A stretch of 64,000 nucleotides of DNA, from assembly GCF_000226975.2 (NCBI RefSeq), contig NZ_CP019286.1:1-64000 (forward strand), read 5' to 3'. Positions 26,732 through 53,743 of the stretch are shown here, in pieces. Below the pieces are notes generated by a model. The model made no database searches. It saw only the letters and a list, made by a program, of their open reading frames with translations, and was not told where the DNA came from. A program made the position numbers and the translations under genes. Source of the stretch: Halobiforma lacisalsi AJ5. Lineage in GTDB: Archaea > Halobacteriota > Halobacteria > Halobacteriales > Natrialbaceae. How positions within the stretch are numbered: position 1 is the first letter of the stretch; every line of letters begins with the position of its first letter.

Positions 26732-26968
26732 TTAGCCCGAGTCGACGTACTTGAACCCCTGATACGCGACGGTCTCGCAGGGAAGCGGTTCGTCGACGCG
26801 CTCGAGCGGGTCGAACCCAAGCTCACCCTCGGCGACCTCACGAATCTCGCCACGGGCGTAGACGCGGTCGCCGTCGGTGAATAGCACACTCGCGCCAGGC
26901 CCGGTCTGTCGGGGCATTCCTGAGGCGGTCCAAAAGCAGTAGTAGTCATCGGGGTGGAGACATACCAC
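26732..26968 (-). CDS. Small protein, paralogue of the 30118 gene C-terminal domain
   Basis: A 78-residue protein DDYYCFWTASGMPRQTGPGA... ending AYQGFKYVDSG. It aligns along its whole length with the last ~80 residues of the protein at 29309-30118 (DDHQCYWTVNGTPQQTRFGQ ... NQGYKYVE). The pattern of an aromatic-rich strand followed by a short barrel is reminiscent of PUA/EVE/ASCH-like nucleic-acid-binding folds, but that is only a suggestion. Another overlapping frame (26698-26982) lacks this homology and was not chosen. Confidence 0.65.
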   Translation of the reverse strand: MVCLHPDDYYCFWTASGMPRQTGPGASVLFTDGDRVYARGEIREVAEGELGFDPLERVDEPLPCETVAYQGFKYVDSG

Positions 26969-27023
26969 ACCCTGTCTACCAAAATTATAATGTGTTTGCT
27001 ACGATGAAATCGTGTTACTGAGA

Positions 27024-28016
27024 ATGACTATATCGAAGTTGCAGCGGGTTTATTACTGGCACGTGGGGAATGTTAGAGACCACATATATAATGAAAAAAT
27101 GGCAGCGCATGATATAAAGAAAAAACGATCTGGCGGCTCAAATGTGGTTATTGGAAATGGGCCCGCCATCTTTGGATATTTTTATGGGAGACTACTCGGG
27201 CGTGGCTATGCCCAATCGAAGGAACTAGGCTGGAAAGGAAGATTGATGCGACTATACGGCCCAATTAGCTATATCCTCTTAGTAGGTGTGCTGTTCCTCC
27301 TTCTTTCCCTGGTGTTGGCGTTGTTTGAATTGACGCTCGAAATTACGCTTCCTCCGACCATTGCACTGTCTGTAATGGTCTTGGCAGGAGTTCCAAACCT
27401 CCATGGCCGATATTTAGCCAAGAAAGATGCTAAGGAAGCAAAAAAGCTCGAGGGGTTGATAGCCAACCCTGCCGCTGGAGAAATCGATACTGCGATTGAA
27501 AATCTGGCCCACCGCCAAGAGCGGGTGAATAAAGCCGCTTTGAGGGCTGCCGCAGATATTTTGGAAGACTCCCCGGGAAAAGCGATCAAGTACAGCTCTA
27601 CAAGTGCTGAATCGATATACACTGAACTTGTACGGCAGGTACAGAGTGGCGACGAGGAAACCAAAGAGTTAGCCCTCAAATCACTGCTCTGGATCTCTCG
27701 AGATCACGGTCACCTTCCATACCAACATGCAAAACTATACAGTAATCTCCTTCAAGTAACTCATTCTCCGATCCAGATCTATTCAACGCTGATTCTGGGC
27801 AACATCAAACTAGAAGACCAAAGCCAGTACAAAGCATGTGCTAAGGCCATTAAACCAGTCGTGCAGGATCCAGATGCCGAAGTTCGGAAAGCTGCTGCAA
27901 CCGCACTTGGGAATTTGCCGTGTGACGTATCACTCAAACTCTTGAATCACTTGGCGAAAGACTCAGATCGGAACGTTCGTCACACAGCAAATGAAGCATT
28001 GCAACACATTCGGTGA
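27024..28016 (+). CDS. HEAT-repeat protein with membrane anchor
   Basis: A 330-residue protein. The N-terminal region is basic; two membrane helices (~80-105 and ~112-130, PISYILLVGVLFLLLSLVLA onward) precede a cytosolic helical solenoid. The last ~70 residues contain clear HEAT/PBS-lyase motifs (DPDAEVRKAAATALGNL and DSDRNVRHTANEALQHI). It is the only sizeable rightward gene inside the leftward cluster and is AT-richer than its neighbours (29 G/C of 60 at 27301-27360), which suggests separately acquired cargo. Function unknown. Confidence 0.65.
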   Translation: MTISKLQRVYYWHVGNVRDHIYNEKMAAHDIKKKRSGGSNVVIGNGPAIFGYFYGRLLGRGYAQSKELGWKGRLMRLYGPISYILLVGVLFLLLSLVLALFELTLEITLPPTIALSVMVLAGVPNLHGRYLAKKDAKEAKKLEGLIANPAAGEIDTAIENLAHRQERVNKAALRAAADILEDSPGKAIKYSSTSAESIYTELVRQVQSGDEETKELALKSLLWISRDHGHLPYQHAKLYSNLLQVTHSPIQIYSTLILGNIKLEDQSQYKACAKAIKPVVQDPDAEVRKAAATALGNLPCDVSLKLLNHLAKDSDRNVRHTANEALQHIR

Positions 28017-28024
28017 CTCAATAA

Positions 28025-28387
28025 TTACTCTATTCGCTCGAGCACGGCCTCGGCCCGCTGTGCGCCGACACCGGGCACGCCCTCGAGTCGCTCCCGATCG
28101 CTTTCTCGCAGGTCATCCAGCGAGTCGTACTCGCGGGCGATCGCCTCGCTAATCTCCTCGCCGACGCCGCTGACGTCTTCGACGACGGCCCGAATCCGCT
28201 CGTTGCGGTCGTCCAGGTGGAACTCGAGGCGGCGTTCGTACTCCGCGTGGTCGATCTCACCCGCGGCGTAGGCCTGTCGGGCTTGTGCGACCGGGTCCGG
28301 GTCGGACTCGAAGTAGTCCTTGGCGTAGGACGCGAGGACGACCGCGACGGCGAGGACAAACCACAGCGGCAACGGATCGCCGGACAT
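28025..28387 (-). CDS. Membrane protein with SHOCT-like and helix-hairpin-helix segments
   Basis: 120 residues: an N-terminal membrane helix (LPLWFVLAVAVVLASYA), a short SHOCT-like segment (ARQAYAAGEIDHAEYERRLE) and C-terminal helix-hairpin-helix signatures (VSGVGEEISEAIA and VPGVGAQRAEAVLE). The HhH pair suggests DNA contact at the membrane, fitting a DNA-export or packaging context. Its start is four codons' reach from the end of the preceding gene, implying coupled translation. Confidence 0.7.
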   Translation of the reverse strand: MSGDPLPLWFVLAVAVVLASYAKDYFESDPDPVAQARQAYAAGEIDHAEYERRLEFHLDDRNERIRAVVEDVSGVGEEISEAIAREYDSLDDLRESDRERLEGVPGVGAQRAEAVLERIE

Positions 28388-28389
28388 GG

Positions 28390-28572
28390 CTACTCACTCT
28401 CGAGTCGTTCCCGTTCCCGCCGCACGCTCTCGTATTCGCGGTCGAGCATGATGCTCGCGACCTCGAGTTCGGCGTCGTCCTGGCCTTTCTGGTAGCCTTG
28501 CCGGTAGCCGATCTGGAGGATCAACAGCGTCCAGAGCGACCCGATCGTGAAAATGATCGCCGGTTCGATCAT
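28390..28572 (-). CDS. Small membrane protein with coiled-coil tail
   Basis: 60 residues: membrane helix (~4-22, PAIIFTIGSLWTLLILQIG) then a charged helix (DREYESVRRERERLESE). It overlaps the preceding gene start by four bases and ends two bases before the next gene, so it is part of the leftward operon. Confidence 0.6.
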   Translation of the reverse strand: MIEPAIIFTIGSLWTLLILQIGYRQGYQKGQDDAELEVASIMLDREYESVRRERERLESE

Positions 28573-29069
28573 GCACTCCCAAAGTCCCCGAGACTCGAGT
28601 CGTCGGGATGCTCGCCGCGTTCGTGGTCTTTCGTACTCCGATCGCCGGGCTTGTACGCTCGCGAGTCGGACAGCGTAAAGTGCGACCGGGCGGCTTCAAC
28701 CAGATCCCATGCCTCCGATGGCATCGACCGGCCGTCGACGTCGGGCGACCGACTCGCCATCGTCTCGTTTCGCAGCTCACGAAGCTCCTCGATACACTCC
28801 GATTCGTACCACGTCAGCGCGTCGAAGATCGGCGTGAGCGTCCAGTCTCGTCCTGCTGGCCCACGAAGGAACAGCGCCCCGACAGCGTCGAGAAAATCGT
28901 CCCGGACGGGCTCACGGTCGCCGTTGCCGTCCTCACGATCGAGGCCGAACCACAGTGTTCGGTCACGTGTCCGAACGGCGATCGGTCGCTCTTGGGTCGC
29001 TGTCTGTCGATACAACGCCCAGGACTCGGTGTCGTCGTCGACGCGGAAGGCGAACTCTGGATTTGACAT
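28569..29069 (-). CDS. Cytosolic protein of unknown function
   Basis: A 166-residue acidic protein (MSNPEFAFRVDDDTESWALY...). The N-terminal half has a beta-rich pattern with TRDRTLWFGLD; the C-terminus is polar and probably disordered. No family recognised. It overlaps the next gene by four bases. Confidence 0.6.
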   Translation of the reverse strand: MSNPEFAFRVDDDTESWALYRQTATQERPIAVRTRDRTLWFGLDREDGNGDREPVRDDFLDAVGALFLRGPAGRDWTLTPIFDALTWYESECIEELRELRNETMASRSPDVDGRSMPSEAWDLVEAARSHFTLSDSRAYKPGDRSTKDHERGEHPDDSSLGDFGSA

Positions 29070-29072
29070 AGT

Positions 29073-29312
29073 TTAGGCCTCCCACTCGCGGACCTCCGCG
29101 AGTGCGGTCTCGAGTTTCTGCTGGTTGAACGGGTCTGATTCAGCCTCGATCTCAGCCTCGAGCCGGGATTCGGGCATGAGTCGTGCCCGGCGTTCGTAGT
29201 GTTTCGCGCAGAGGTACCGACCCTCGAGCCGACCGATTGGATTGGTCTGGCACCGTGAGACGGCACAGTGTTTGTCGCGAACGGTTCCGGCGAAGGTCTC
29301 GAGGAGATTCAT
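29073..29312 (-). CDS. Small Cys/His protein
   Basis: 79 residues: MNLLETFAGTVRDKHCAVSR with CAVSRC, then YLCAKHYERRARL, a C-x4-C ... C-x2-H arrangement like a compact zinc finger, followed by a charged helix. The start at 29312 overlaps the upstream gene stop (ATGA). A longer frame from 29549 lies inside the upstream gene and is not supported. Confidence 0.6.
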   Translation of the reverse strand: MNLLETFAGTVRDKHCAVSRCQTNPIGRLEGRYLCAKHYERRARLMPESRLEAEIEAESDPFNQQKLETALAEVREWEA

Positions 29313-30118
29313 GCGCGCGCTCGCTCCGGTGTCCGCTGGCCGGTATCGATCGGCTCGACGTACTTGTACCCCTGATTCGGGACGGTCGTCGGACACTCGA
29401 GGTCGACCTCCCACAGCGGGGAGAACCAGATGCGTCCGCTCTCGGTCCCGCGTATCTGTCCACAGGCAACGAGTTGACCGTCTTGTTCGAACCAAATCCG
29501 CTGGCCGAAGCGTGTCTGTTGAGGCGTTCCGTTGACCGTCCAGTAGCACTGGTGGTCGTCAGGAACGTTTTTCTCGAGTTTGTGTTCGATCTGTTCGTCG
29601 GTCGCGTGTACGAGTACGTCTTTGGGCGTCATATCCGGGTCTGGGAGCTTGTCGGTCGTGTTCGGGCCAAAATCGAGTTGGTCCTCGTAGTCGTCGCCGT
29701 TCCGGGTATCGAGTTTCGTCACGGCGTAGCCGTCGTGACGCTCGACGACCGGGAGTTCGACGACGCGGACGGTGGTCGGCGCAGCGCCGGGCCGGATGAG
29801 TACGAGTTCCTCCCCGTCAAACGCGATATCGGCCAGCGACGGCTCGTTGACCGTATCCTCGAGCCGCTGGTATGCGATCGCGAAGAACCGGGCGTCGGCT
29901 TCGGACTGTGCGGCCACGCGGAAGTACGCCGCGTGAAACGCGCCGTGCATCCCAGCCGAAACCGATGCCACGAGATACACAGTGTGGTCGTTGTCGGGCG
30001 TCTCGTCGTGGTGAACGTCGGGAAATTCGAAACAGTCGGGACAGACTGCGTTCCGTGCGAGGTAGTTCGCTCGCGTGTCGAACGGTTCACCGCAATCTGA
30101 GCAGGTGTGCGTGTCCAT
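29309..30118 (-). CDS. Zinc-finger protein with C-terminal barrel-like domain
   Basis: 269 residues from ATG 30118 (MDTHTCSDCGEPFDTRANYL). An N-terminal zinc ribbon has CSDCG and CPDCF. A central alpha/beta domain follows (YLVASVSAGMHGAFHAAYFR). The C-terminal ~80 residues are homologous to the stand-alone protein at 26732-26968. Domain order suggests a nucleic-acid-binding regulator. A frame extension to 30214 crosses non-conserved intergenic DNA and was not used. Confidence 0.65.
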   Translation of the reverse strand: MDTHTCSDCGEPFDTRANYLARNAVCPDCFEFPDVHHDETPDNDHTVYLVASVSAGMHGAFHAAYFRVAAQSEADARFFAIAYQRLEDTVNEPSLADIAFDGEELVLIRPGAAPTTVRVVELPVVERHDGYAVTKLDTRNGDDYEDQLDFGPNTTDKLPDPDMTPKDVLVHATDEQIEHKLEKNVPDDHQCYWTVNGTPQQTRFGQRIWFEQDGQLVACGQIRGTESGRIWFSPLWEVDLECPTTVPNQGYKYVEPIDTGQRTPERARA

Positions 30119-30504
30119 AGCTGACAGTTGGTGAGTGGTTCCTAGTACGTTTCGCCGACAATCTTGCTCTCGCACGTACGCGGATGTATTCGATATCGAA
30201 AGCCGGCGATCCACTGGTTTCGCTTCCGATACCCATGCCTCGAGCGTGGAGATCCGTCCTTCTCTCTCATAATGACTTAAACGCTTCAGCGAGCGGCCGA
30301 ATCTGCCGTCTGAGGGTTAATTCAACGCAAAAGTGATCGACACCAACTTCCAATTACAAGACCGTACTCTAGATACGTACGCCCGTACCCCTGCAACCCC
30401 AGCAACAGACCCACAGTCATCCTCTCTCCTCTTACAGTTGGAATAGCGTCTCTAAGGCCAGCGATTAGCTGTGGATAGCGTGATTCGTCTTTGTCCACAG
30501 CCGC
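30119..30504. other. Intergenic region splitting the leftward cluster
   Basis: About 386 bases with no convincing gene. GCTGTGGA (30468-30475) and TCCACAGC (30494-30501) form a hairpin just after the stop of the MCM-N-like gene, a plausible terminator or processing site. The left half, rich in short AT tracts, probably holds the promoter for the gene block from 30118 leftward. Confidence 0.5.
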
Positions 30505-31443
30505 TCAACAGTCTGGTTCGAACGTCGGTGTCGAACTCGTTGTGATATGTACCCGACCGTCTCGGTGTTCCGAAATCAGGCTGCCCCCCTCGAGATCGTC
30601 GAGTGCGGCCTGGATCTCCCCCTCGGCGACACCATGTTCGTCACTTACCGTGTCGATCACCTCTCGCGTCGCCGTATCGTAGCTCGAGCCAGCAGTGCTT
30701 AACCGATCGACGGCGTCGAAGGTCCACTTCCGAACTTTCCAATCCGCGACCTCGTCGACCGTCGCGGGCTGTTCGCTCTTGTTGATCGAGACGGCGTCGA
30801 GATACGTCTCGAGAACAGCCTCGTCCTGGTCGGGCAAGATATCGTATGTTCCGACGATCGTCACCACATCACCGGCACTAACGGTCTCACAGAGGTCTTC
30901 CCACAGGAACACGACTTCGACAGGCGGGTCGTCCATCGACGAGTCGGTTCGTTGGAGTTCAATCCGCTGAAAATCGACGACCTCGGACTGCCCGAGATGA
31001 AATCGGAACGCGGAGCTTTGCTCGCAGCCCTGGCACTGCCCTGGCTCGAGGAGGTCGCCTCCCGATTGTGGCACGCGCGTCAGTGTGCCGCACAACTGAC
31101 ATTCGAACGCGGCCTCGCGAGCGCACGGTTTGACCATGCCGACGTCGACCACTTCGCCCGTGACGCCGATCAACTCGCCGAGCGCCGACGAGCCGTACTT
31201 CCCGACGCGATAGGTACGCCGTTCGGGAAGCTCGTACACGCGGACGGGCGTGTTAATGTAGCCAAGCGAGGAGAGTGCGCTCCGAGCGCCTTTCAGCCCG
31301 TTGTCCGGGTCCTCGAGCACGAGATCCGCAAGGTCACGGTCGGCATCCTCGATCGCTGGCCACGGCACCCGGACCGAGTCGGGGCGGCCGTCCGACTCGA
31401 GGTACCGCGACAGTGGTCCCTCGAAGGCCGCTTCCCAGTCCAT
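30505..31443 (-). CDS. MCM N-terminal domain-like protein lacking the helicase motor
   Basis: 312 residues. The central part follows the archaeal MCM N-terminal domain: LGELIGVTGEVVDVGMVKP (OB-fold start), AAFECQLCGTLTRVPQ with a second CQGC knuckle (CxxC...CxxC zinc ribbon), VVDFQRIELQRTDSS, and VSAGDVVTIVGTYDIL. No Walker A/B or AAA+ module follows. Instead the last ~80 residues form a winged-helix-like region (ATREVIDTVSDEHGVAEGEI). It lies two bases from the ATPase gene upstream. It may bind DNA or engage the host MCM, for example in replication hijack or in delivering DNA to the ATPase. Confidence 0.75.
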   Translation of the reverse strand: MDWEAAFEGPLSRYLESDGRPDSVRVPWPAIEDADRDLADLVLEDPDNGLKGARSALSSLGYINTPVRVYELPERRTYRVGKYGSSALGELIGVTGEVVDVGMVKPCAREAAFECQLCGTLTRVPQSGGDLLEPGQCQGCEQSSAFRFHLGQSEVVDFQRIELQRTDSSMDDPPVEVVFLWEDLCETVSAGDVVTIVGTYDILPDQDEAVLETYLDAVSINKSEQPATVDEVADWKVRKWTFDAVDRLSTAGSSYDTATREVIDTVSDEHGVAEGEIQAALDDLEGGSLISEHRDGRVHITTSSTPTFEPDC

Positions 31444-31445
31444 CG

Positions 31446-33926
31446 TTATCGGTCCACCTCCTCGAGTGCGGTTTCGACCGCGCCCCAGTCGACCTCGAGC
31501 ACCTGCTGGCCGACCGGCGTCAACGACCACACGTCGTTCCGGCCGTCTTTCTCGAGACACGGACCAAGCCCGTTGTCCTTCGATGCATGGTCTCGCAACG
31601 TGGCTTCAGCAAAACTCGGGTCGAGTGCGGTGTACAGTTCCCCGTAGCTTCCGTAGTCGTTCGCTTCGACGAGTTCGCACGTCTGGATGAACTCCTGCCG
31701 GAGCGAGGCATCTTTCCGGAGCCACGCCGAGATCGCCCGCGGCACGTCGTACCGCGTTGCGATATCCTCGTAGGTCGTTTCCTGCCCGACCTGCTCGAGC
31801 GTGATATCCTGCTGTCGATCCTGGCCGTCGACGGGCTCGAGGACTAATTCCGACGGGACGGCGTAGTCCCGCCGGTTGCGGAGTACCCACTGCGTGAGCC
31901 GATCCGTCACCGCTGTCTCGGCGTCGTCGTACTCGAGGACGGCCAGTTCGGCGGGGAAATCCTCGTCACGGAGGTACCAGCCACCGATCGCCGGGTATCG
32001 ATCTGGAGACACAACATCGCCGCTGATTACGTCGACCCACCATTCGGGAGCGGTATCCTCCGACCACGGCGGCGTCGGCGACTCGCGGACGCGAGCGCCC
32101 CAGGCTTTCCCGTAGCGGTCGCGCCAGACCTTGTCGCCGAGGCCGAGACCACACGGTGCGCCCCGCCATTCGATCGGCCAGAACGGTTCCCCGTCGGCGT
32201 AGATCATACCGGTTCCGGTTTCGAAGGTTCGCAGTTGCGTGAACTGTTCCGGGGTGAAATCGAACTTCTTGTCGAGTTCACGAACCTGTTCCTGCCCCTG
32301 CCGAAGCAGGATCTTGGTGTCCATGTTGTTCCGCACGGGTCGGAGGACGTCGTTGAACTTCTGGGTCGAGCCAAGCAACAACACTCGTCTCGAGCCCCCC
32401 TGCGTGGCGATAATACGGAACGTCTGCTGGAGGGCTCGAATTTGGTCCTTGTACCGGGCGTGTTGAATCTGTGATGGCGCGACGTTTTTCAGCTCCCGAA
32501 CCTCGAGACAGACCCGCGGCAGGCGCGGCCACTCGTCGCGAGCGTCCATGATCTTCTGAAGCCAAAGGTCCATGATCGTGTACTTGAACCCGTCACTCGC
32601 GTCGATGAAGTTACAACACAGCACCGCCGCCGTCTCGTTATCCGACAGCATCTCGCGGAAATCCAGGTTCGTCGATGCATCCGGCGACGCAATGAACCCC
32701 TCGCCGGCGAGTCGTGCGAGTCGTTGCGCCGCCTTTTCAACGGCCTGTTCGGCCGACAGCGAGAACGAGGCCTCGTAGGTTTCGACCGAGCCGTCGCTTT
32801 TGTGCCGGTCCTGTTTCTCGGTCCATTCGATCGTGGCCTCGAGCCCTTCGGCGAAGTCGAACAGCAGGTTGATGAGTTGATCGACCTGTTTCGACCGGTT
32901 GAGTGTAATCTCCAGGGCTTCTTTGATCCGTAACTCGAGGGATGGATCGGAGTCGGTGACGCCGGCCAGCCGGAGGATATCCTTCGGCGTGAGCATATCG
33001 ATCCCCAGCGTGAACGGCTCGAAGTTCGCCGGGAGGACGTCCGGTGTGCCCTCCATCCGCGGGACGTAGACCGTCGTGTCCATTGCCCGCGGCTGCTGGT
33101 TGAACCGCTCGAGGTTGTTCCGAATCACCTCTTCATCATTCGGAATCGCAAGCATCGGCGTCTCCATGCGGCCGTCATCGTGTAACGAGATGTACTTGTA
33201 GCCGTGCTCTCGCCAGAGGTTCATCCCGATCGACGTGAGTGTCGAGTCTTTCCCCTCGCGGGGCTTGGCGATCGCGAGGATGTGGTCGCAATCGTCGTGG
33301 GGAATCGCGACCTCTTTGTCCTCGAGATCGGCGGCTTCGTCTTTCGAGACACGACGCCGCCCGATCGGCGTCACCTCGTCGATATCCGGCGCGTGCGGAA
33401 CCTCCTCCGGATCGAGTTTTTCGAGGTAGACCGGCGCGTACTGCGAGGGGTCAGTTAACGAGGTGAGGTGGTTGAGTTCCTTCGCGATCTTGGTCAACGT
33501 CTCGAGTTCGCGTTCCGGGCTCGGCGGCGAGTAGCCGTTCGCACGGGCGGCCATGTGGTCCCGAAACCGGGCTTTCGTCCCGCTGTCGACGAACTCGCCG
33601 TCGTAGGCCGGTTGCAGGATCGACTCGAGGTCGTCGTCGCGTTTGAGAATCCAGTGGAGCGTTCGCAACAAATCGTCGGCTGGATACGCGCCGTCACCGG
33701 ACAGTGACCACCGCGTCTCGGCGATCAGTTTCCGGACAAGCGCCTCGTGTTCGGCCCGCGACTGTTTCTCGGTCTGTTCGGCGCTTTGCTGCTGGAGGTT
33801 CTCGAGTGCCGTCCCAACGTCGGTCTCGTCTTTCGCCTGGATTGCCTCGTATTGGACGGCGTCGTCCGTCTCGAGAACCGCTTTCTCATCGTCGTCTGTC
33901 GGTTCAGGTGGGTGGGGCTGGCTCAT
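31446..33926 (-). CDS. HerA/VirD4-like DNA-translocase ATPase
   Basis: 826 residues. The core has a phosphate-binding loop ILAIAKPREGKDST (~215-228), divergent but of HerA/FtsK/VirD4 character. Later come a Walker-B-like strand LPRVCLEVRELKN (~468-480) and a sensor-like VLLLGSTQKFNDVL. RNNMDTKILLR is placed like the end of a HerA core. The N-terminus is helical, the C-terminal ~150 residues look like winged-helix domains. No membrane helix, so it would dock on the neighbouring membrane proteins. Proposed role: pumping DNA across a membrane or into a particle. Gaps to its neighbours are two and five bases. Confidence 0.75.
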   Translation of the reverse strand: MSQPHPPEPTDDDEKAVLETDDAVQYEAIQAKDETDVGTALENLQQQSAEQTEKQSRAEHEALVRKLIAETRWSLSGDGAYPADDLLRTLHWILKRDDDLESILQPAYDGEFVDSGTKARFRDHMAARANGYSPPSPERELETLTKIAKELNHLTSLTDPSQYAPVYLEKLDPEEVPHAPDIDEVTPIGRRRVSKDEAADLEDKEVAIPHDDCDHILAIAKPREGKDSTLTSIGMNLWREHGYKYISLHDDGRMETPMLAIPNDEEVIRNNLERFNQQPRAMDTTVYVPRMEGTPDVLPANFEPFTLGIDMLTPKDILRLAGVTDSDPSLELRIKEALEITLNRSKQVDQLINLLFDFAEGLEATIEWTEKQDRHKSDGSVETYEASFSLSAEQAVEKAAQRLARLAGEGFIASPDASTNLDFREMLSDNETAAVLCCNFIDASDGFKYTIMDLWLQKIMDARDEWPRLPRVCLEVRELKNVAPSQIQHARYKDQIRALQQTFRIIATQGGSRRVLLLGSTQKFNDVLRPVRNNMDTKILLRQGQEQVRELDKKFDFTPEQFTQLRTFETGTGMIYADGEPFWPIEWRGAPCGLGLGDKVWRDRYGKAWGARVRESPTPPWSEDTAPEWWVDVISGDVVSPDRYPAIGGWYLRDEDFPAELAVLEYDDAETAVTDRLTQWVLRNRRDYAVPSELVLEPVDGQDRQQDITLEQVGQETTYEDIATRYDVPRAISAWLRKDASLRQEFIQTCELVEANDYGSYGELYTALDPSFAEATLRDHASKDNGLGPCLEKDGRNDVWSLTPVGQQVLEVDWGAVETALEEVDR

Positions 33927-41665: not shown

Positions 41666-41724
41666 CTGCGGGTCACCTCGAGCAGGTCCGTCGTCGTGTA
41701 TTGGTGTCGTGACATTGTGGATCG

Positions 41725-44362: not shown

Positions 44363-45175
44363 TTACTCGTAGGCGAGTTCGTCGCGATCGGTTCCCTGCG
44401 AGAGGCCGAGCGGGATCCAGACGTTGCGGGCGAGCCACGCATCACGGGTGTCCTCGCGCCACCAGTGCTCGCGGTCGCCGTCGTAGAACACGAACGGGTT
44501 CTCGACAGCCTCGTAGCTGGTACTCGAGTACCGGCCGTTGTCGTACCACGTCTCGCGTGTCTCGAGCCAACTGCCGTACTCCGCAAAGTCCTGCACGTAC
44601 TCGCCGTCGGCGCTCAACGCCGGGGTAAAGAAGTGGTTGTGCGGCCGGGCAACCGCGAGCACGACGTGGGTCTGTTCACCGGCGACCCGGTCCTCGACGA
44701 AATTCGACGCGTCGCCGTCGATCCGCAGCCCGTAGTGATGCCCGCCCGAACACCACACCTCCTCGATGGTCTTGTCCGGCTGCCGGAACACGATGATCGG
44801 CTCGTGGTCGGTGAAATGAGCGTCCTTGAAGTCGATATCCCACCCCAGATACCAGAGCACGCTTCGCTGCGTGTTGCTCCGGACCCAGTAGTAGTGGGCG
44901 ATTACGTCGTGCTCGGTGCTCTCGGCCGTCCAGCCGTACATGCCGCGGACGTCGCTTTTGGCCTCTCGAGCTTCGTCCCACGGGAGGTGGTCGTAGCTCA
45001 ACTGCGGCTGGAACTCGAGCAGTTCCTCACGATCGTCCCGAACCTCGATGTGGTCCGGTGGGGCAGGGTTGCCGGCGTCGTCGCGCTCGAGGTCGTCCTG
45101 CCGGCCGTCGGACCCACCGAAGGGGCCGAAAAAGGACGGTGTCGCCGCGGTCGCGAGGAATGTACGTCGCTGCAT
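44363..45175 (-). CDS. Tat-exported protein of unknown function
   Basis: 270 residues from ATG 45175 (MQRRTFLATAATPSFFGPFG), a short Tat signal very like that of the next gene upstream. The mature part has aromatic-rich segments (AHYYWVRSNTQRSVLWYLGW, then WCSGGHHYGLRIDGD), histidine clusters and a VARPHNHFF motif. No family recognised. The longer ATG at 45184 overlaps the subtilase stop. Confidence 0.65.
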   Translation of the reverse strand: MQRRTFLATAATPSFFGPFGGSDGRQDDLERDDAGNPAPPDHIEVRDDREELLEFQPQLSYDHLPWDEAREAKSDVRGMYGWTAESTEHDVIAHYYWVRSNTQRSVLWYLGWDIDFKDAHFTDHEPIIVFRQPDKTIEEVWCSGGHHYGLRIDGDASNFVEDRVAGEQTHVVLAVARPHNHFFTPALSADGEYVQDFAEYGSWLETRETWYDNGRYSSTSYEAVENPFVFYDGDREHWWREDTRDAWLARNVWIPLGLSQGTDRDELAYE

Positions 45176-45180
45176 GAGAG

Positions 45181-46758
45181 TCACCCGAGGAACCCGGCGA
45201 TTGTCCGGCCGCGTGTGGCCGCCAGCGCCTCGTTGAACGCGTCGCGAGCCTTTGCGTCGTCGTCGCGGACGGCTTCTTGATCATCCTCGTAGTCGGTGCC
45301 CTCGAGTGCGGCCTGGACGTCCAGCAAGCCGTGTTCGGCCTCGGTCGTCCCGAAATTTGGCACCGGGTAGGCGTACTTGGTCAGCCGCTCGAGGATCGTC
45401 TCGTTGTCGTGCCCGACGCCTGCGAGGACAGCCGCCGCGCCAGTAACCATCGGCGCGGCCATGCTCGTTCCGCTCAGTGTGCCGAACGGATCGGCGGTGA
45501 CGTTCATCCCCGGCGCGGCCAGTTGCGGCCTCGCGCCCTCCGACGCGCCCTCCGAGAGGTCTTGGGTGCCGGGTGCGGGGCCGACGTTACCGAAATAGGC
45601 GATCTGTGTGTCATCACGGTCGCCGCTCTCGGGGACGTTCGTCGCGTTGACGCCGACGGCCTCGTCAACAGATGACGGATGAGCCACGAACGTGGTCGCG
45701 TAGCGGTCATTCCCGACCGCCACGGCGGGGAACACGCCCGCGTCCCAGGCGTCGGCCAGCGCGTCGGCCAGCGGCTCAGACCACTGGGGCGAGCCCAAAG
45801 AGAGGCAGGCCACGTCCGCGCCCGCGTCGACGGCGAGTTCGACCCCGGCGACGATATCGGCTACCGACCCCGAGCCGTCGTCGGCCAGTGATTTGGCGAC
45901 TAGGATCTCGGCGTCCGGCGCGAAGCCCTGGTAGGCCGGATCGTCGTGGTTCGAGGCGATCGCCGCCGCGACCCAGCTCCCGTGACCGTCGCCGTCGGCA
46001 ACCGCCCGCGGGCCGTTCGCATCGACGGTCTCGTCTTCCCCGCCGGTGAAATCAGTCGACTCGGGGTGGAACCGGTTGGTCCCGTCCGCGTCCTCGAACA
46101 GCGCCCGATCGTCCGCTCCGGTGTCGATCACGGCGACCGTGACGCTCGAGGTGTCCACGCCCGCGAGGAAATCGTCGTCGGCGCGGACGAGTCGGCGGGC
46201 CTCCCGGAGCGTCGCTTCCGGCGCGTCCTCGTCGAACGCGAGGCCGTCGTCATCGGGCGTCGGGTCGGTGCCGAGCGCGGTCGTCAGCGACAGGCGATCG
46301 AACAGTCCGAGATCGTGGTCGACGTCGCCTTGCGCCGCGAGGTCGGCAGGCTCGAGCACGTCCGGTCGATCGAGGAACGCGTCGGGCGCGGCGTACTCGA
46401 GGTAGTCGAGATCGGTGAGCCCGCCGCTGTAGCGGTCGATCCCGAACGTCGTCGATCGGCCCGCGTCCGACCACGACATGCTCACGGCGAGCATGTTGAC
46501 TCCCGAGAGGTCCCGGTGGATGCTGGCCGTCTCGGTGGTCTCGAGCCACTCCTCGAGTGACTCGCGGTGGTCGGCGTCCTCGTACCGAAGGACGAACCCG
46601 GGATAGCCGTCACGGAACGTGTCCACGTCGACGTCGCTCTCGAGGGTGGCCGGCGTGAACGCCTCCGGCGACCCCACGGCGAGGCCGCCGAGGACGGCGG
46701 GCGTCGTGGTTGCGGCTGCTGTAGCTCCAACCGTCGTGAGGAATGTGCGTCGTTGCAT
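45181..46758 (-). CDS. Tat-exported subtilisin-like serine protease
   Basis: 525 residues. Tat signal QRRTFLTTVGATAAATTTPA, a propeptide-like region (~40-190), then a peptidase S8 domain with the catalytic triad in standard motifs: Asp in VAVIDTGAD (~210), His in GDGHGSWVAA (~258) and Ser in LSGTSMAAP (~430). Related in design to halolysins. Within the cluster it may mature or remodel the surface proteins, or help penetrate a recipient envelope. A C-terminal helical extension of ~50 residues follows. Confidence 0.88.
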   Translation of the reverse strand: MQRRTFLTTVGATAAATTTPAVLGGLAVGSPEAFTPATLESDVDVDTFRDGYPGFVLRYEDADHRESLEEWLETTETASIHRDLSGVNMLAVSMSWSDAGRSTTFGIDRYSGGLTDLDYLEYAAPDAFLDRPDVLEPADLAAQGDVDHDLGLFDRLSLTTALGTDPTPDDDGLAFDEDAPEATLREARRLVRADDDFLAGVDTSSVTVAVIDTGADDRALFEDADGTNRFHPESTDFTGGEDETVDANGPRAVADGDGHGSWVAAAIASNHDDPAYQGFAPDAEILVAKSLADDGSGSVADIVAGVELAVDAGADVACLSLGSPQWSEPLADALADAWDAGVFPAVAVGNDRYATTFVAHPSSVDEAVGVNATNVPESGDRDDTQIAYFGNVGPAPGTQDLSEGASEGARPQLAAPGMNVTADPFGTLSGTSMAAPMVTGAAAVLAGVGHDNETILERLTKYAYPVPNFGTTEAEHGLLDVQAALEGTDYEDDQEAVRDDDAKARDAFNEALAATRGRTIAGFLG

Positions 46759-46770
46759 GAAGATCACCTC

Positions 46771-49700
46771 TTAGGCGGCCACCCGACGGCGCGTGAACAG
46801 TCCGAGGCCGACAGTCAGTCCGGCCGTCGCGGCATGGATCGCGCCGACCGAGAGAATCGGCAGTGACGGACTCGGGAGCGACATGGCCAGTGAGTGCTGG
46901 AGGCCGGCGACGATTCCGGGATCGGGATCGATGGTCAGATCGATCGTGCCGTCCGAATCCGTGTAGGTCCGAATCACCGTTTTCTCGCCGTCCTCGCCCC
47001 GAAGTTGCACTTCACCGTGGCGGGTCGTGTCGTCGACGGCCAGCGGATTCGCGCCGAACCACGCCGGATCACCGCGCCAGACGGCCGCGTCCGCGTCGAG
47101 CGACCGGTCGAGATGCACGACCGTCTCGATGTTGCTCGAGACCTGGCGTTGATCCGTGCCCTCGAGCACACGGACGGTCAGCCCGTCCGCGCCAGTCATG
47201 GCCTCGCCGGGTTTGACGTGGATCGATCCCGGCACCTCATCGGCCGGCACGACGCCCCGGACCGCGAGGCGGTCGTCCTCGCGCTCGATCGCCGCGTTTC
47301 GCAGGCCCTCGCCCGCGAGTGCGAACGACCCCGACGCGGAGTCGGCAACCCGAATCGTCGGGTCGTCCGAACGGCCGTCCTCAAGGGCACGGACTTTGAA
47401 CGCCTGGACGAACTCGTCACCACTGCCGCTTGCAACGGTCAGTTTGACGTGATGCACGCCCGCGCCGTTCGTGGTGAACGTCGCTCGGTCGTCGGCCCGA
47501 ACCTCGCCGGCGATCGTGTTGCCGTCGGGATCGTAGGCGGTCACGTCGGTGATGCCGTCGATCGATTCGCCGTCCGCGGGCCGCACCGTCATGGCCACCT
47601 GTTCGGACGGGCCGGGCGAATGGGTGTTCAGGCTAATCGCCTGAATGTCGGGGACCAGCCCCTCGAACGCCGGGTTCTGGATAACCTGATCGCTGCGACC
47701 GACCCCCTCATCGTTGGCGACGACGACCTCGAACTGGCCGACAGCGGTGTCTAGCTCCTCGGTCGGGTACTCCACGACGACTTGGTCGCCCGCGAGCACG
47801 CCCGAGGACTCGATGTGCCAGTGTTCATCGGCGACGGCTGTGGGGTCGCCACCGTCGGCCGGGTGTTTGAGCACGGTCACGCCGTCGGGCTCGAGGTCGC
47901 TGGCGAACGGGAACGTCGCTCGAATCGTCTCCTCGCCGATCTCCGTCTCGCCGTCGCCGGCATCGATCCGGTCCTCGAGCGTCCGTAACGTTTCCTCGAG
48001 CGTTTCGATTTCGTCGACCAACTCGTCGTTGTTGAGATCGGGGTCGTCGTAGTCGACGTCGACGTCGACCTCGCGATCGAGCGCATCCTCGAGTTCGTCT
48101 TGGAGGTGATCGTTCTCCTCGAGCAGGTCTGTGTAGTTGTCGTGGATCTCGGTGAGATTCTCGTCGGTCCACTCCTCGGGGAGTTCGTCGAAGCCCTCGA
48201 GGTCGGCGACCGACTCGTTCAGGAGCTCGTCCTCGAGCCAACTTCGCCAGTCGTCGTAGGCCTCCATGTCGTCCCACGGAATCTCATCCGAGCGGATGAC
48301 CTGGACCTCGGCGTCTTGCTGTTCCGGGTAGACCGTGCCCGTCTCGGCGGGCAAGAGCCAGGACTGGTTCGCGCCGTCAAGTGAGTACTCTCGGATATCC
48401 TCGAGTCGAAGGTCGTCGAAGCTCGGATCCTCGAGGTTTTCGTCCCGGAGGTCGTTGAGCGCGGTGATGACCTCTTCGTCGCCCTTGTACGCCTGGATGG
48501 AGTACTCGTCCGGGCCTGCGGGTGCGTTGACTTCGAAGTGGCCGGTCGCGTTCGTCGTCGTGCGTTCGCGAACGACCACGTCGTCGAGAGCGTTCTCGGC
48601 CATGTCGTAGCGTTGCTCGAGGCGATCGGCCCGATCCCAAAGATCCTGGGCGTAGTCGGCGGCGATATCATCCGGATCGCCGACCACGAACGTGTAGGCC
48701 TTTGCCCGCTCCCCCTCTGGGTAGGCCTGATAGATACCGACCGGGAGTCGGGCTTCGGCGACGTGATGCTCGTTCGTCGAGAGCGGATTCGCGCCGGTCG
48801 TCTCGTATTTCGGCGTCGTCTCGAGCGTGCGCGTGTCGATCGTCTCCCCGAGCGGGTCCATCTGCTCGACGACGATCGTGCCCTCGGTGACCGCGCCGGG
48901 GAACGAGTTGTCCACTTGGTTTTCGACCCAGCCACCCTCATCGGGGTCCCACAGCGAGATCGTGACCCGTTCGCCCTCGTCGATCCGGACGCGGGGGTCG
49001 TCGACGCTCGAGGAAATGACGGTCGCGGTGCCGACGCTCCAGTCGTCCGATTGGTGGACAAGCGGGTACGTGCCGTCGATTGCTTGATCCCATTCACGGG
49101 TGTCGAGGCGGCCGTCGTCGGCTTCGAAGTCGTCGGTGAACTCGTCGTAGTCCTCGGGGACCGAGTTCTCGAGTTCGTCGGCGAGGTCGCGGGCCGAGTT
49201 GATGTCGTCCTCGAGCTCGCCGAGGTCAGCCTCGTCGAGTGCGGGTTCGTCAACGCCCCAGGCTTCGACGGTGATGTTGTCTTGCTCGACAGGATCGCCG
49301 TGTTGATCAACGACTTGGCCGGTGATCGAGGAAACGTCAGTGTAGATCGTTCCTAATGTAGTTACATCCCGGATTTGATCGTCATGAGCTTCGATATCCC
49401 AGGTCAAATCACCGCTATCTGTGTTATATGCTCTGAGGATACTATCATCACCACCAGCGAATACCGTCTCGGAATCTACTGAAGTCGCGACACCCCAAAC
49501 ATCGCCAGTGGGCTCGTCGGTAGACCACATCTCGTCTCCACCGCCGGTTTTAATAGATCGAACAGTCGAATCCCTACTGCCCGTAAATATTTTCGTGCCG
49601 TCAACAGACGGTGAAATAGTGAACAGCCGGTCTGTGTGGCCTCCATTCACCCATTCCTGGCTACCAGTGGTCACGTGAAGAGCCCTTACCTGATCATTAC

Positions 49701-50460
49701 TGTCACCAGCATAGACGTAGTCACCGTTTGGTCCCGCCGCTAACGCTCGAACTGAGACAGTTGCGTCACTATTAGTCCAGAGATGGTCGCCTGAATCCGC
49801 ATCATATGCGATTACATCACCAGAACTACTTGATGAGAATACTATGTCACCCTCCGGAGAGAACGACGTTTCATACACGCGGTCCGTATGCTCGTCCCCA
49901 TCGGACCAAATCACGTCACCGGTGTCTGCATCAAGAGCAACGACCTCATTTCCGTGAGTCCCTGCCACGATCATCTCTCCGTCAGGGGATGTGGCAAGGC
50001 CCTCTACCCGACTTGAGCCTGAATCCCACGTCCACCCAGAATCACCTGAGTCCGCACTGAGTTGTGTAACGGTTCCGGAGTCATCACCAACATACACATA
50101 CTGATCATCAGGAGCTGGCGTTAAGGACCGAGGAGCAGAGCCAAACGGATCTGTCGACTTCCATTGTTCTTCCTGGTTTCCTGCGTTAAAAGCCTTTACA
50201 GAGCCATCTGCGGACGCTGTATAAATTGTTTCACCACCAACAGAGTCGAGATTTAATTCCGTGGCGAGTGTGTTTGTGGGATCAGAGGCCGGGTCTAATC
50301 TTTCCAAATTAGAATTCGTGTCAGCAGCACCAACACTGAAAGGAACCGCAACAAGACTAAAGATGAGAATGCACGCGATCAGAACGGATCGGATCTGAAC
50401 ACGGTTGCTTGCTCTTTCCCGCCAGTACGTCAGTCGTGTGGGTTTGATTTCTGGTTTCAT
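46771..50460 (-). CDS. Large surface protein: beta-propeller, coiled coil, C-terminal anchor
   Basis: 1,229 residues from ATG 50460. Signal peptide/anchor (VLIACILIFSLVAVPFSVGA, ~27-46). Residues ~60-375 are PQQ/WD40-like repeats (e.g. TIYTASADGSVKAFNAGNQE, VYVGDDSGTVTQLSADSGDS) forming a beta-propeller. Next come a carboxypeptidase-regulatory-like domain (GQVVDQHGDPV), a long mixed region, a coiled coil (~780-830), Ig-like domains, and a final membrane helix before TRRRVAA. Base composition changes at ~49330, the end of the propeller. A frame extension to 50640 is a shadow of the preceding gene. Likely recognition or coat protein. Confidence 0.78.
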   Translation of the reverse strand: MKPEIKPTRLTYWRERASNRVQIRSVLIACILIFSLVAVPFSVGAADTNSNLERLDPASDPTNTLATELNLDSVGGETIYTASADGSVKAFNAGNQEEQWKSTDPFGSAPRSLTPAPDDQYVYVGDDSGTVTQLSADSGDSGWTWDSGSSRVEGLATSPDGEMIVAGTHGNEVVALDADTGDVIWSDGDEHTDRVYETSFSPEGDIVFSSSSSGDVIAYDADSGDHLWTNSDATVSVRALAAGPNGDYVYAGDSNDQVRALHVTTGSQEWVNGGHTDRLFTISPSVDGTKIFTGSRDSTVRSIKTGGGDEMWSTDEPTGDVWGVATSVDSETVFAGGDDSILRAYNTDSGDLTWDIEAHDDQIRDVTTLGTIYTDVSSITGQVVDQHGDPVEQDNITVEAWGVDEPALDEADLGELEDDINSARDLADELENSVPEDYDEFTDDFEADDGRLDTREWDQAIDGTYPLVHQSDDWSVGTATVISSSVDDPRVRIDEGERVTISLWDPDEGGWVENQVDNSFPGAVTEGTIVVEQMDPLGETIDTRTLETTPKYETTGANPLSTNEHHVAEARLPVGIYQAYPEGERAKAYTFVVGDPDDIAADYAQDLWDRADRLEQRYDMAENALDDVVVRERTTTNATGHFEVNAPAGPDEYSIQAYKGDEEVITALNDLRDENLEDPSFDDLRLEDIREYSLDGANQSWLLPAETGTVYPEQQDAEVQVIRSDEIPWDDMEAYDDWRSWLEDELLNESVADLEGFDELPEEWTDENLTEIHDNYTDLLEENDHLQDELEDALDREVDVDVDYDDPDLNNDELVDEIETLEETLRTLEDRIDAGDGETEIGEETIRATFPFASDLEPDGVTVLKHPADGGDPTAVADEHWHIESSGVLAGDQVVVEYPTEELDTAVGQFEVVVANDEGVGRSDQVIQNPAFEGLVPDIQAISLNTHSPGPSEQVAMTVRPADGESIDGITDVTAYDPDGNTIAGEVRADDRATFTTNGAGVHHVKLTVASGSGDEFVQAFKVRALEDGRSDDPTIRVADSASGSFALAGEGLRNAAIEREDDRLAVRGVVPADEVPGSIHVKPGEAMTGADGLTVRVLEGTDQRQVSSNIETVVHLDRSLDADAAVWRGDPAWFGANPLAVDDTTRHGEVQLRGEDGEKTVIRTYTDSDGTIDLTIDPDPGIVAGLQHSLAMSLPSPSLPILSVGAIHAATAGLTVGLGLFTRRRVAA

Positions 50461-50464: not shown

Positions 50465-51067
50465 CTAATTATTACCATCTTTATCGTCACTGAACGGCCA
50501 CCAATCAAAATCAAACGAGAACAGACCATCGTCATCGTCGCGATTATCTCCATCATCACCGAACGGCCACCAATCAAAATCAAACGAGAACAGACTATCT
50601 CCACCGCCGAAAATGAAGAACCCGCCTTCTGAAGACTCATCTACTAACTCCGCATCACTCCCATCTTCATCCTTATCGTCGCTGTCAGTCCCTGAACCAT
50701 CAGGGATCGCAAGCTCTAATGAGTCAAGTTCGGGCGTTGATCCATATTCTGACGATGTTAAAGTAATATCAAACCAGTAATCCGCGGCATCGTCGACCGA
50801 ACGTTCCAAATCTGCTAATAGATACGTCTGAGTTCCGTCTTTGACATATATCGTCTCAGAATTCTCGGCCCCATTGACAGACTCATGAACGGTAATCGCA
50901 AGACCAGTATTGGTTGGCACCGTGGCTGTAGCCGAAAGTTCATGATACCCGGTATCCGCAACGGACAATGTCGGAACCGACCCGAGTAATCCGGCAACAC
51001 CTACCGCGGCACCTGCTTGCAGAACGGCACGGCGCTCTATACAGGTGGCTGATTCCGTCGTTGACAT
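50465..51067 (-). CDS. Tat-exported protein with duplicated aromatic motif
   Basis: 200 residues. Tat signal (ERRAVLQAGAAVGVAGLLGS), a beta-rich domain (~40-125), an acidic linker, then two nearly identical motifs, LFSFDFDWWPFGDD and LFSFDFDWWPFSDD, 23 residues apart. The aromatic motifs could bind membrane, sugars or the partner propeller proteins. It sits between the two propeller genes with 2-4 base gaps. No family recognised. Confidence 0.68.
   Translation of the reverse strand: MSTTESATCIERRAVLQAGAAVGVAGLLGSVPTLSVADTGYHELSATATVPTNTGLAITVHESVNGAENSETIYVKDGTQTYLLADLERSVDDAADYWFDITLTSSEYGSTPELDSLELAIPDGSGTDSDDKDEDGSDAELVDESSEGGFFIFGGGDSLFSFDFDWWPFGDDGDNRDDDDGLFSFDFDWWPFSDDKDGNN
50492..50595. 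repeat. 35-bp direct repeat, 69-bp period, inside the 200-residue protein gene
   Basis: A 35-base stretch starting GAACGGCCACCAATCAAAAT at 50492 is repeated exactly at 50561. It encodes the duplicated FSFDFDWWPF motif. Exact nucleotide identity suggests a recent duplication, in frame (69 = 23 codons), able to expand or contract. Confidence 0.9.
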
Positions 51068-51069: not shown

Positions 51070-52986
51070 TTACTTCATCCCCTCCGTGATCCGCGCATGA
51101 TCAAAAACGAGACTAGAATCCGAATTTTCTGAGTAAAAGCCAATTCCCGGATCAGTCCCGTCTGTCGGATACGTACTATCTTGGATAGCCTCCGCGAATA
51201 TTTGATCAGCTCTGTTTCCATCCGCGTCAAGTTCGTAGACCGTTATCTCATGGCTACCATCGGACCCCCACGCGATCTCGACGTCATACCAAGTATTGAT
51301 ATTGACAGACGCTGCTGTATCAACGATATCAGTCCGGGCACCAGAATCATACCGAGAGATTCGAATGACGCCATCAGCAGATTTGAAGAAAATTCCGTAA
51401 TGATCGTTGTCGTTGGCATCAACACCGTAGCAAATAGTCGGCCGAGAACTTCCTGTGTAGGTCTTTACGGAATACACGTCGCCCGGAGAGGGATAGTTTT
51501 GAAGACCGTCGCCAGGGCGTGAGATAAGCCGATATTCTGGGGACGATGCAGTGAGAGCTTGGTCGCCTTCGACGACTTCTGAAGTTTCGAGTTCCCAATA
51601 GCTAGTCCCAACAGAGTAGCTATCGAGGTTGGCCGTTTCGAAGTCATCAACTATACCTCCAGTCTCTTCGAATACACGTCTGACAATACCTCCATCAGTG
51701 ATCTCTATTTGATCATCTTTGCTCTCATAGTCCTGCCAATCATCTTGTGAAGACAGCGTTAACGGAGAGGTGGATACCGTAGTAGGAGTCGTCATTAGTG
51801 ACGCCACGTAGCTCGGCTCAGGATACTGGACATCCCACCACGCAACTTCATTTTCGTTCGACTCGCCAGCTGTGACCATCTCGGCGTCGCCATCGCCGTC
51901 AAGATCGACAAACCAGATATTGTCGTCCGCCTTTCCAATTGAACCCTGGAGGGAATCGACCCAAGTCCCAGTATCTTCATCATATTCCCAGAGGTAGAAC
52001 TGATCCTCCGATCCCTCCAGCGTAATTAGCTGATCTCGAGGCGACCCCTTCCAATCGTGAGCGGCTACGTTGCGCCAGTTGCTTCCAGAATCGACTTCAA
52101 CCTCGAGCCATGCATTTGGGTCGGTTACATCCGACGGGCCAGGGTAGCGGTAGAAGCCCATCCCATCGCCAGCATTTTCCCCGGGTTGATCGATCAGGTT
52201 ATCACACAGAATGTCAAGCGGCTCGCCGTGCCCTGACAGATCCGCATTTGTTATCCCTTTCCGTTTTCCAAGCGGACCTATTTGATGGTCAGTCCACGGG
52301 GTGTCATACGGGTCAGATGGTTTTTCGACCCACCACAGCCCACCGTCTGCATCACTGTTCCATCCAGTTCGGGCAGAAAACACGAGATCACCGCGACCAT
52401 TCCTAGATACGTCGAGTTGGTCTCGAACGAGACCATGTGCCCCCTCCTGTTGGACGAGTTCATGCAGCGCCCAATCAGAGGGGTCCATCGGGTCGCTTCC
52501 AGTAAACTCGAGCCATCTGAGAGCCCCCTCATCGGCCTGTGATCCGTCGTGTGTGTAGATTAGGTCGTTTTCTTCACCGTCGCCAGTCAGATCGCAGATA
52601 TACGCATCCTGGAGGTATGGTGCATTATCGTCGAGAATTGTCGATTCCCAACTGGCTTCATCGGTCGGATCACCGCCCGACGGTTTATAGATCGTCAGAA
52701 CCCCATCATTTTGATTAAGAGAAAATACTTCCACAATTTCGTCCCCGTCGATATCACCTGCTTCGGTGCCTTCGATTTCGCCAGTACTCTGATAATCAAT
52801 TTCATACTCGCTCCATGTACCGGACGGATCGCCTGGATTTTCGTACCAGAAAACGTACCCCGACTCGTCGCCACCAACAACAATATCGAGGTTTCCGTCG
52901 TTGGTCATGTCTGCCATGACCATGCCGTCATATGCTTGACCGCTTTGAATCGTGTTTCGAGTGAAATCCCACGTCATCGCGGACAC
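51070..52986 (-). CDS. FG-GAP/VCBS-type beta-propeller protein with lectin-like domain
   Basis: 638 residues. At least six DxDxDG-type calcium loops occur in propeller repeats across ~20-390 (DMTNDGNLDIVVGG, DIDGDEIVEVFS, DLTGDGEENDLIY, DLDGDGDAEMVTAG). The C-terminal ~200 residues resemble a concanavalin/LamG-like jelly roll (DDFETANLDSYSVGTSYWEL ... NINTWYDVEIAWGSDGSHEI). Such proteins usually bind ligands outside the cell, yet no signal peptide is visible; it starts MSAMTWDFTRNTIQSG. It could be exported with the Tat protein next to it. Lower GC than the flanking genes. Confidence 0.75.
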   Translation of the reverse strand: MSAMTWDFTRNTIQSGQAYDGMVMADMTNDGNLDIVVGGDESGYVFWYENPGDPSGTWSEYEIDYQSTGEIEGTEAGDIDGDEIVEVFSLNQNDGVLTIYKPSGGDPTDEASWESTILDDNAPYLQDAYICDLTGDGEENDLIYTHDGSQADEGALRWLEFTGSDPMDPSDWALHELVQQEGAHGLVRDQLDVSRNGRGDLVFSARTGWNSDADGGLWWVEKPSDPYDTPWTDHQIGPLGKRKGITNADLSGHGEPLDILCDNLIDQPGENAGDGMGFYRYPGPSDVTDPNAWLEVEVDSGSNWRNVAAHDWKGSPRDQLITLEGSEDQFYLWEYDEDTGTWVDSLQGSIGKADDNIWFVDLDGDGDAEMVTAGESNENEVAWWDVQYPEPSYVASLMTTPTTVSTSPLTLSSQDDWQDYESKDDQIEITDGGIVRRVFEETGGIVDDFETANLDSYSVGTSYWELETSEVVEGDQALTASSPEYRLISRPGDGLQNYPSPGDVYSVKTYTGSSRPTICYGVDANDNDHYGIFFKSADGVIRISRYDSGARTDIVDTAASVNINTWYDVEIAWGSDGSHEITVYELDADGNRADQIFAEAIQDSTYPTDGTDPGIGFYSENSDSSLVFDHARITEGMK

Positions 52987-53080
52987 CTCCCGGCCAACAG
53001 CACGGATAAGTTGATCACTGCCCGCAGGCCACTGCGGTCGCTATGCGACTTCTCTGAACGTCTTGTTCCTGTCATGAAAA

Positions 53081-53743
53081 TCAGCCCCAGGAGTCGTCGA
53101 ACTCCGACGTCCGGAGTTCCCGCACCAGTTCTTCCATGTTCGATTCGTCCGATTCGCCGGCCGCCTTCCGCTCGAGGGCGTTCTCCCGCAGTCGCCGCCG
53201 CCGGCTCGGGATCACTTCGTCGACGGCCTCGAGCACGAAGTCGACGACCTCGGTGAACTCCTCGCGGCCACGATCGCCGAGGACGCCGCCGAATGAGATC
53301 GTTCCACACTCGGGACAGTGCCGGTGGCGGCGGTGGTCGTGTTTCGTAATCTCGAGTGCCGACTCGAGGCTCGTCGGATCGTACTCGAAGTCGACCTCAA
53401 CCCGCGGGAGGTGATGTTCCGGTTCGGTTAGTTCGCAGGCCGCGTCGTACTCGTACCAACACTCCGGGCAGAACAGCGGCGGGTTGCCGTAGCTCCGGAG
53501 AATTGATCCGGCCACCCATGCGTCCCGATTGACGCCCTGGACCTGCGTGTGGGTGTCCCCGCGGCCAAGCATCTCGTCGATCGACGGGATATCCGGGTCG
53601 TCCTCGGGGTCGCCTTCGGGTTCGTCGTGTGTGGGTTGCGTTTCGTCTTTCGGCGACCGCTCGAGGTCGAACTCGCCGGTTTCGCTGTCGAAAATGTTCG
53701 TGCGTGCGCCGAGCGCGACGGTGTTGTCACTGTTGGAACTCAT
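53081..53743 (-). CDS. Zinc-finger protein, first gene of the leftward cluster
   Basis: 220 residues. A disordered acidic N-terminus, then CPECWYEYDAACE (~92) and HRRHRHCPECGTISFGG (~140), two zinc-knuckle halves, with a basic helix (IPSRRRRLRENALERKA) and an acidic end. It is divergent from the putative repressor at 54049, placing both at the control region of the cluster. A regulatory or DNA-binding role is likely but not proven. Confidence 0.65.
   Translation of the reverse strand: MSSNSDNTVALGARTNIFDSETGEFDLERSPKDETQPTHDEPEGDPEDDPDIPSIDEMLGRGDTHTQVQGVNRDAWVAGSILRSYGNPPLFCPECWYEYDAACELTEPEHHLPRVEVDFEYDPTSLESALEITKHDHRRHRHCPECGTISFGGVLGDRGREEFTEVVDFVLEAVDEVIPSRRRRLRENALERKAAGESDESNMEELVRELRTSEFDDSWG

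Follow-up and report, generated by a model that had tools for sequence, protein, structure and literature searches.

The window analysed here is the first 64 kb (64,000 nucleotides, nt) of a 216,196-bp contig (NZ_CP019286.1; C2) of the haloarchaeon Halobiforma lacisalsi AJ5, whose genome also has a main contig of 4.16 Mb. It carries a leftward gene cluster belonging to the apHPVs, plasmids potentially transferred in self-encoded vesicles, of which 41 elements have been described (Lucking, Alarcon-Schumacher and Erdmann 2023; PMC10818511). The conserved cluster spans 30505-53743, plus a divergent regulator at 54049-54246; an initial annotation had drawn it from 26732 to 53743, which takes in the whole core and also a stretch, 26732-30504, that is accessory only. 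The G+C content is even, about 0.59-0.68, over most of the core (28-50 kb). Genes are named below after the open reading frames (ORFs) of plasmid pR1SE of Halorubrum lacusprofundi, with starts corrected for ORF6 (50460; 1229 amino acids, aa), ORF21 (38978) and an MCM-like gene that we call MCM-OB (31443). All genes of the cluster lie on the minus strand; compared genomes are denoted by G and a number.

The first gene (53081-53743) encodes a 220-aa Cys-rich protein with 27-37% identity to the product of the gene directly before ORF6 in pR1SE and seven other elements. Two variable inserts follow: a 638-aa FG-GAP propeller and laminin-G-like protein (51070-52986; FG-GAP_3, E 9e-12), with a relative only in G285 among the compared elements, and a 200-aa twin-arginine-exported protein (50465-51067; TAT_signal) with a duplicated FDFDWWPF repeat and a tandem 64-nt repeat. 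The ORF6 homologue (46771-50460), read from MKPEIK, combines a signal peptide, a PQQ/WD40 propeller (PQQ_2, E 1e-26), a coiled/beta region and a C-terminal anchor; it is syntenic with pR1SE ORF6 and 28% identical to it. ORF7 (45181-46767) is a twin-arginine-exported subtilisin-like protease (Peptidase_S8, E 7e-33; 46% to pR1SE), and ORF8 (44363-45184) is also twin-arginine-exported (28% to pR1SE; 49-55% to G197, G237 and G184). ORF9 (42824-44245) is an anchored, DUF2808-like surface protein (E 4e-8; 42% to pR1SE, 84% to G285).

Between ORF9 and ORF17 lie a 238-aa twin-arginine-exported protein (41921-42637; SRRRFV motif, relatives in nine elements) and two small proteins with one transmembrane (TM) segment each, the first (41408-41785) with 38-56% relatives in G249 and G197, the second (41142-41405) recognised by hydropathy and overlapping ORF17 by 4 nt. 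ORF17 (39871-41145) has three N-terminal TM segments and an ectodomain (35% to pR1SE; 52-57% to G184, G294, G249 and G197). Two small two-TM proteins, probably in the ORF18 and ORF19 positions (39563-39874 and 39261-39566), show 55-72% and 54-73% identity within the channel clade of ORF17, and a conserved soluble protein of 79 aa, probably in the ORF20 position (38975-39214), has 54-70% relatives in five elements. The remaining channel genes are almost universal in a first comparison set of 27 loci, which includes the surroundings of 25 ORF25 relatives. ORF21 (38310-38978; 27/27 loci) is soluble and has a conserved CxxCxhYGxxCP cluster; ORF22 (37318-38313; 26/27) has two TM segments and a coiled coil; ORF23 (35957-37303; 27/27) consists of a signal peptide, a beta-sandwich ectodomain, a TM segment and a cytoplasmic helical domain, in which a helix-hairpin-helix is only hinted at (best Pfam E 9e-4, in 3 of 24 members); ORF24 (33932-35953; 27/27) is polytopic with a cytoplasmic C-terminal domain. 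Profile searches of the PDB with ORF23, ORF24 and ORF25 returned nothing solid, and ORF24 found no relative there.

The 826-aa ORF25 (31446-33926), probably an ATPase of VirD4/TrwB-HerA type with a C-terminal helix-turn-helix-like part, keeps its motifs in all 27 loci. MCM-OB (30505-31443; 312 aa), an MCM N-terminal domain with zinc ribbon and OB fold (MCM_OB, E 5e-17; PDB MCM N-domains, E 9e-38), starts 2 nt past the ORF25 stop. Behind it, the accessory proteins of 28569-30214 are common to Natrinema sp. DC36 (66-83%) and G197, partly also to G226, and a protein with a short TM segment, a SHOCT-like part and a helix-hairpin-helix (28025-28387; HHH_5, E 1e-10) has relatives in six elements. 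A tyrosine recombinase gene (24994-26340, plus strand; Phage_integrase, E 6e-14) converges on the cluster and has 39-43% relatives near four other elements. We searched 22000-57000 for a pair of att sites; the direct and inverted repeats were unconvincing, their families being codon-biased, GC-rich chance matches. On the other side, the divergent gene (54049-54246, plus strand) encodes a 65-aa ribbon-helix-helix-like regulator with relatives at the same divergent site in G184 (82%), G389, G249 and G243.

The gene content reported by the initial annotation is borne out: an MCM-N-like protein, a HerA/VirD4-like ATPase gene, an anchored surface protein (ORF9), two propeller proteins (the FG-GAP protein and ORF6), four twin-arginine proteins including the subtilase (the 200-aa and 238-aa proteins, ORF7 and ORF8), and the flanking recombinase and small regulator. 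Its count of at least eight membrane proteins stands too, since hydropathy predicts TM segments in about ten (ORF6, ORF9, the two small proteins before ORF17, ORF17, the two small ones after it, ORF22, ORF23 and ORF24), and the close coupling that it described takes the form of exact 4-nt ATGA-type overlaps at five junctions, with most remaining junctions at 20 nt or less.

An element that has five or more of the six marker ORFs (6, 8, 17, 21, 23 and 24; PMC10818511) counts as a complete apHPV. The window holds all six, each with a BLAST match (E<1e-3) in pR1SE and in many other elements. The published layout is present as well: the ORF6-9 cluster and the cluster of ORF17, 21 and 23-25 stand in the same order and on the same strand, separated by a variable region, here three small or twin-arginine genes. 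Both hallmarks, a subtilisin-like ORF7 and a VirB4/HerA-like ORF25, are found, ORF25 being the family's own by direct homology. Its full-length relatives include pR1SE (NZ_KX687704; 39%) and 12 further plasmids, and matches at E<=0.001, nearly all full-length, occur in 26 of the 392 genomes of the order. The relatives and pR1SE share the order gene before ORF6, ORF6, ORF7, ORF8, ORF9, variable region, ORF17 and ORF21-25, and this core order is kept by the majority of the 33 other genomes and plasmids compared, some of whose loci are cut by contig ends. One locus, in G289, lies on a main chromosome and has ORF21-25 only. Dozens of genomes share the synteny of ten or more consecutive families, and conservation of the cluster is far above chance; the synteny check proposed with the initial annotation, for which synteny nowhere would have been the damaging outcome, thus found it in many genomes.

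The cluster thus belongs to an already described family, and its first description as undescribed was wrong, as the apHPVs, including their VirB4/HerA-like ORF25, were published in 2023 (PMC10818511). pR1SE, invoked at that time as an analogy, belongs to the very family in question: it has ORF6, 7, 8, 9, 17, 21, 22, 23, 24 and 25 in the same order at 24-46% identity (KX687704), and the gene before ORF6. It differs from the window element in having no MCM-OB behind ORF25, in its ORF25 and ORF23 clades and in replicon size (50 kb versus 216 kb), while the window element has the FG-GAP and twin-arginine inserts before ORF6. New here are the mosaic structure of the element and the link of an MCM without helicase to the packaging ATPase.

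No Pfam family covers ORF25. Its P-loop is PREGKDST (residues 222-229), with LPRVCLEVRELK and LGSTQKFND as further motifs, and the 27 loci conserve HxxCDHIL-x-x-A-x-P-R-x-G-K-D-S-T, LPRVxLExRELK and GSTQKxNDV as P-loop, acidic and sensor motifs. Aligned by hhalign with seven TrwB-like haloarchaeal ATPases, it scores a probability of 87% (E 4e-6), its motifs falling on Walker A, Walker B and the sensor; the controls gave 0.8% for the MCM AAA+ domain, 0.3% for the subtilase and at most 0.2% for shuffles. The published structural match of ORF25, to VirB4, HerA and the STIV2 packaging ATPase (PMC10818511), agrees with this. An ATPase of the VirD4/TrwB-HerA class is thus the likely assignment, likely rather than proven because smaller profile sets give no signal. 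ORF25 can be aligned with the VirD4/TrwB coupling ATPases and HerA at the P-loop, acidic motif and sensor region; unlike them, it has a modified P-loop (PRxGKDST), and its cluster has neither a relaxase nor a VirB set.

The element is put together as a mosaic from three modules, the coat (ORF6-9), the channel (ORF17-24) and the motor (ORF25 and MCM-OB). The ORF25 and ORF23 trees disagree strongly: ORF23 and ORF24 place the window with G184, G294, G226, G249 and G197, ORF25 with G249, G046 and G389. In approximately unbiased (AU) tests, the channel (ORF23) group was rejected on ORF25 (p 2e-7) and the motor (ORF25) groupings were rejected on ORF23 (p 4e-5 and 3e-44), these p-values being descriptive because the groups were named after the trees were seen. 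The history of the coat genes is different again, with the closest subtilase and an 84% identical ORF9 in G285. The same conclusion follows from three apHPVs that are each close in their own module only. That of Natrinema sp. DC36 has 78% DNA identity in pieces within 28600-33438 (downstream genes, MCM-OB and ORF25), after which similarity is lost; that of Natronosalvus halobius has 78% DNA identity inside ORF24 (33999-34904) and an ORF25 protein of only 39%; that of Halopiger xanaduensis has an ORF9 protein of 84% and shares the subtilase. Another locus, L032 (G197:C3:56600-60806), contains a full ORF25, then a second, truncated copy with two internal TAA codons, then MCM-OB, as if recombination had replaced one motor gene by another.

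MCM-OB shares with the MCM replicative helicase domain A, the zinc ribbon with its four invariant cysteines and the OB fold, that is, the N-terminal half, and then ends in a short tail where the helicase has its AAA+ motor with Walker A. The MCM_OB family matches all 14 members of the set and AAA+ none of the 14 copies; five held-out copies measure 313-355 aa. Matches in IMG/VR are full-length MCMs of viral contigs (713-775 aa), most with GDPxTxKS. Again unlike the helicase, MCM-OB does not stand alone but is coupled to ORF25: of 18 cases measured, 17 have the start at -8 to +17 nt relative to the stop of ORF25. Within the first 27 loci it is found behind ORF25 in 14/14 members of one fully supported ORF25 clade and in 0/13 others. 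Seven elements held out from this set all behaved as predicted (five inside the clade with MCM-OB, two outside without), so that over the 34 loci it stands directly behind ORF25 in 19/19 clade members and 0/15 others. On the ORF25 tree a single change accounts for its presence, against six to seven on the ORF23 tree and seven on the ORF24 tree. A decayed MCM-OB fragment on the main chromosome of the host (G000 C1:588368-588763) is 72% identical to the MCM-OB of G237, a different apHPV; within about 15 kb of it no other core genes were found, and we take it as a remnant of an apHPV that the host carried earlier.

Contact-free transfer from cell to cell in vesicles containing plasmid proteins is established for pR1SE only, and every core product except ORF25 was detected in these vesicles (PMC10818511). 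By analogy, the 216-kb plasmid would produce vesicles of its own. The coat proteins (propeller, protease, ORF8 and anchored surface protein), exported through twin-arginine and Sec signals, would decorate or shape the budding vesicle, the ORF7 subtilase maturing them. The channel module, with its small membrane proteins, ectodomain protein, anchored ORF22 and ORF23 and polytopic ORF24, would form an envelope-spanning port, through which, or into the budding vesicle, the cytoplasmic ORF25 may pump plasmid DNA. MCM-OB, made together with ORF25 in this clade, most likely recognises or selects the DNA or feeds it to ORF25. The roles of pump, channel and MCM-OB are suggested by homology, by anatomy and by the findings on pR1SE. 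Plasmids that travel in vesicles make the boundary between plasmid and virus less sharp, and a motor cassette exchangeable among coats and channels is a concrete, testable candidate for the DNA-loading step.

Altogether, we consider it probable that the cluster is an apHPV core on a 216-kb haloarchaeal plasmid that works as a plasmid-vesicle machine, which is the best explanation of the data. The initial proposal of a particle or channel that moves the replicon's DNA was right in substance, DNA export itself being suggested by pR1SE. Several observations weigh against this explanation. At 216 kb, the plasmid is close to the upper end of the sizes published for apHPVs (44-271 kb; PMC10818511) and may be too large for whole packaging. 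With a split TrwB-like set, or with HerA alone, the profile match of ORF25 drops to about 1%, and an AlphaFold2 model of ORF25 from three sequences was unusable (predicted local distance difference test, pLDDT, 40). The ORF23 model was weak (pLDDT 56), with weak Ig-like ectodomain matches and nothing specific in a Foldseek search of the PDB. The strongest alternative for the whole cluster is a non-functional resident element, decayed or domesticated in the plasmid and kept for some other benefit than packaging DNA. The large replicon, the accessory cargo and other replication genes around the core, and the chromosomal MCM-OB relic, which shows that such genes decay in this host, would agree with it; all core ORFs, however, are intact, in order and free of stops, catalytic and P-loop residues are kept and most of the core has an even G+C content, and we consider decay improbable. 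That the genes form a contact-dependent, conjugation-like apparatus of the type IV secretion system (T4SS) kind is very improbable. It would account for a VirD4/TrwB-like ATPase beside several membrane proteins and for an ORF23 ectodomain weakly like envelope beta domains, with a T4SS outer-core protein at rank 12, but pR1SE transfers with the same genes and no cell contact (PMC10818511), PLSDB types 14 of 14 plasmids with ORF25 matches as non-mobilizable, and among the window proteins neither Pfam nor NCBIfam finds a VirB or Tra model, be it a relaxase or a VirB4/VirB6/VirB8-type set. A particle-like gene set with a protease might also suggest a new virus with a capsid of a new type. This is hardly credible, since the homologous plasmids do not cluster with viruses (PMC10818511), 50,697 phage records and IMG/VR hold no ORF25 relative, and PHROGs yields no significant capsid, spike or other structural family in the core proteins, where a pleolipovirus or other archaeal virus should show spike or capsid genes.

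For MCM-OB, the strongest alternative to a part in the vesicle machine is a replication or regulatory role. In public records, genes of this kind are entered as ATPase, as MCM or as replication control protein Cdc46, which probably explains why MCM is counted as a replication gene in 20 of the 41 elements (PMC10818511). Being an MCM relative, it could accordingly be a plasmid replication factor outside packaging, as that study implies. We find this rather unlikely: AAA+ is missing from every copy examined, 15 elements have no MCM-OB beside ORF25, and the gene tracks the ORF25 tree rather than the rest of the cluster, so that a replication-helicase label is doubtful. The window also has two Orc1/Cdc6-type genes at a distance on both sides of the cluster (15083-16363, minus strand; 57306-58340, plus strand), and replication thus does not obviously depend on MCM-OB. 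Its linkage to ORF25 could be mere adjacency, but ORF24 is equally close and unlinked. A helicase-less protein that travels with ORF25 is probably a packaging part, and as a role for MCM-OB, delivering DNA together with the packaging ATPase is more likely than acting as a replication helicase. We tentatively suggest that an MCM N-terminal domain, its motor lost, may have been taken over by a VirD4-like packaging ATPase as the subunit that recognises or loads the DNA, giving an exchangeable two-gene motor cassette in vesicle-spread plasmids. As the constant motor partner in one clade, a helicase-less MCM calls into question the role assumed for such genes in plasmid replication.

Elsewhere in the window, 3227-4459 (minus strand) encodes an ADP-ribosylglycohydrolase (Pfam E 3e-74), and 6733-13609 (plus strand) an overlapping AddB/AddA-like pair of a PD-(D/E)XK nuclease (1071 aa) and a UvrD helicase-nuclease (1222 aa); the latter scores against GajB defence models, as expected of a UvrD protein. 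Finally, beside the divergent regulator (54532-55826), a short reading frame appears to be interrupted by an element of IS200/IS605 type that carries a TnpB-like gene (54768-55826).

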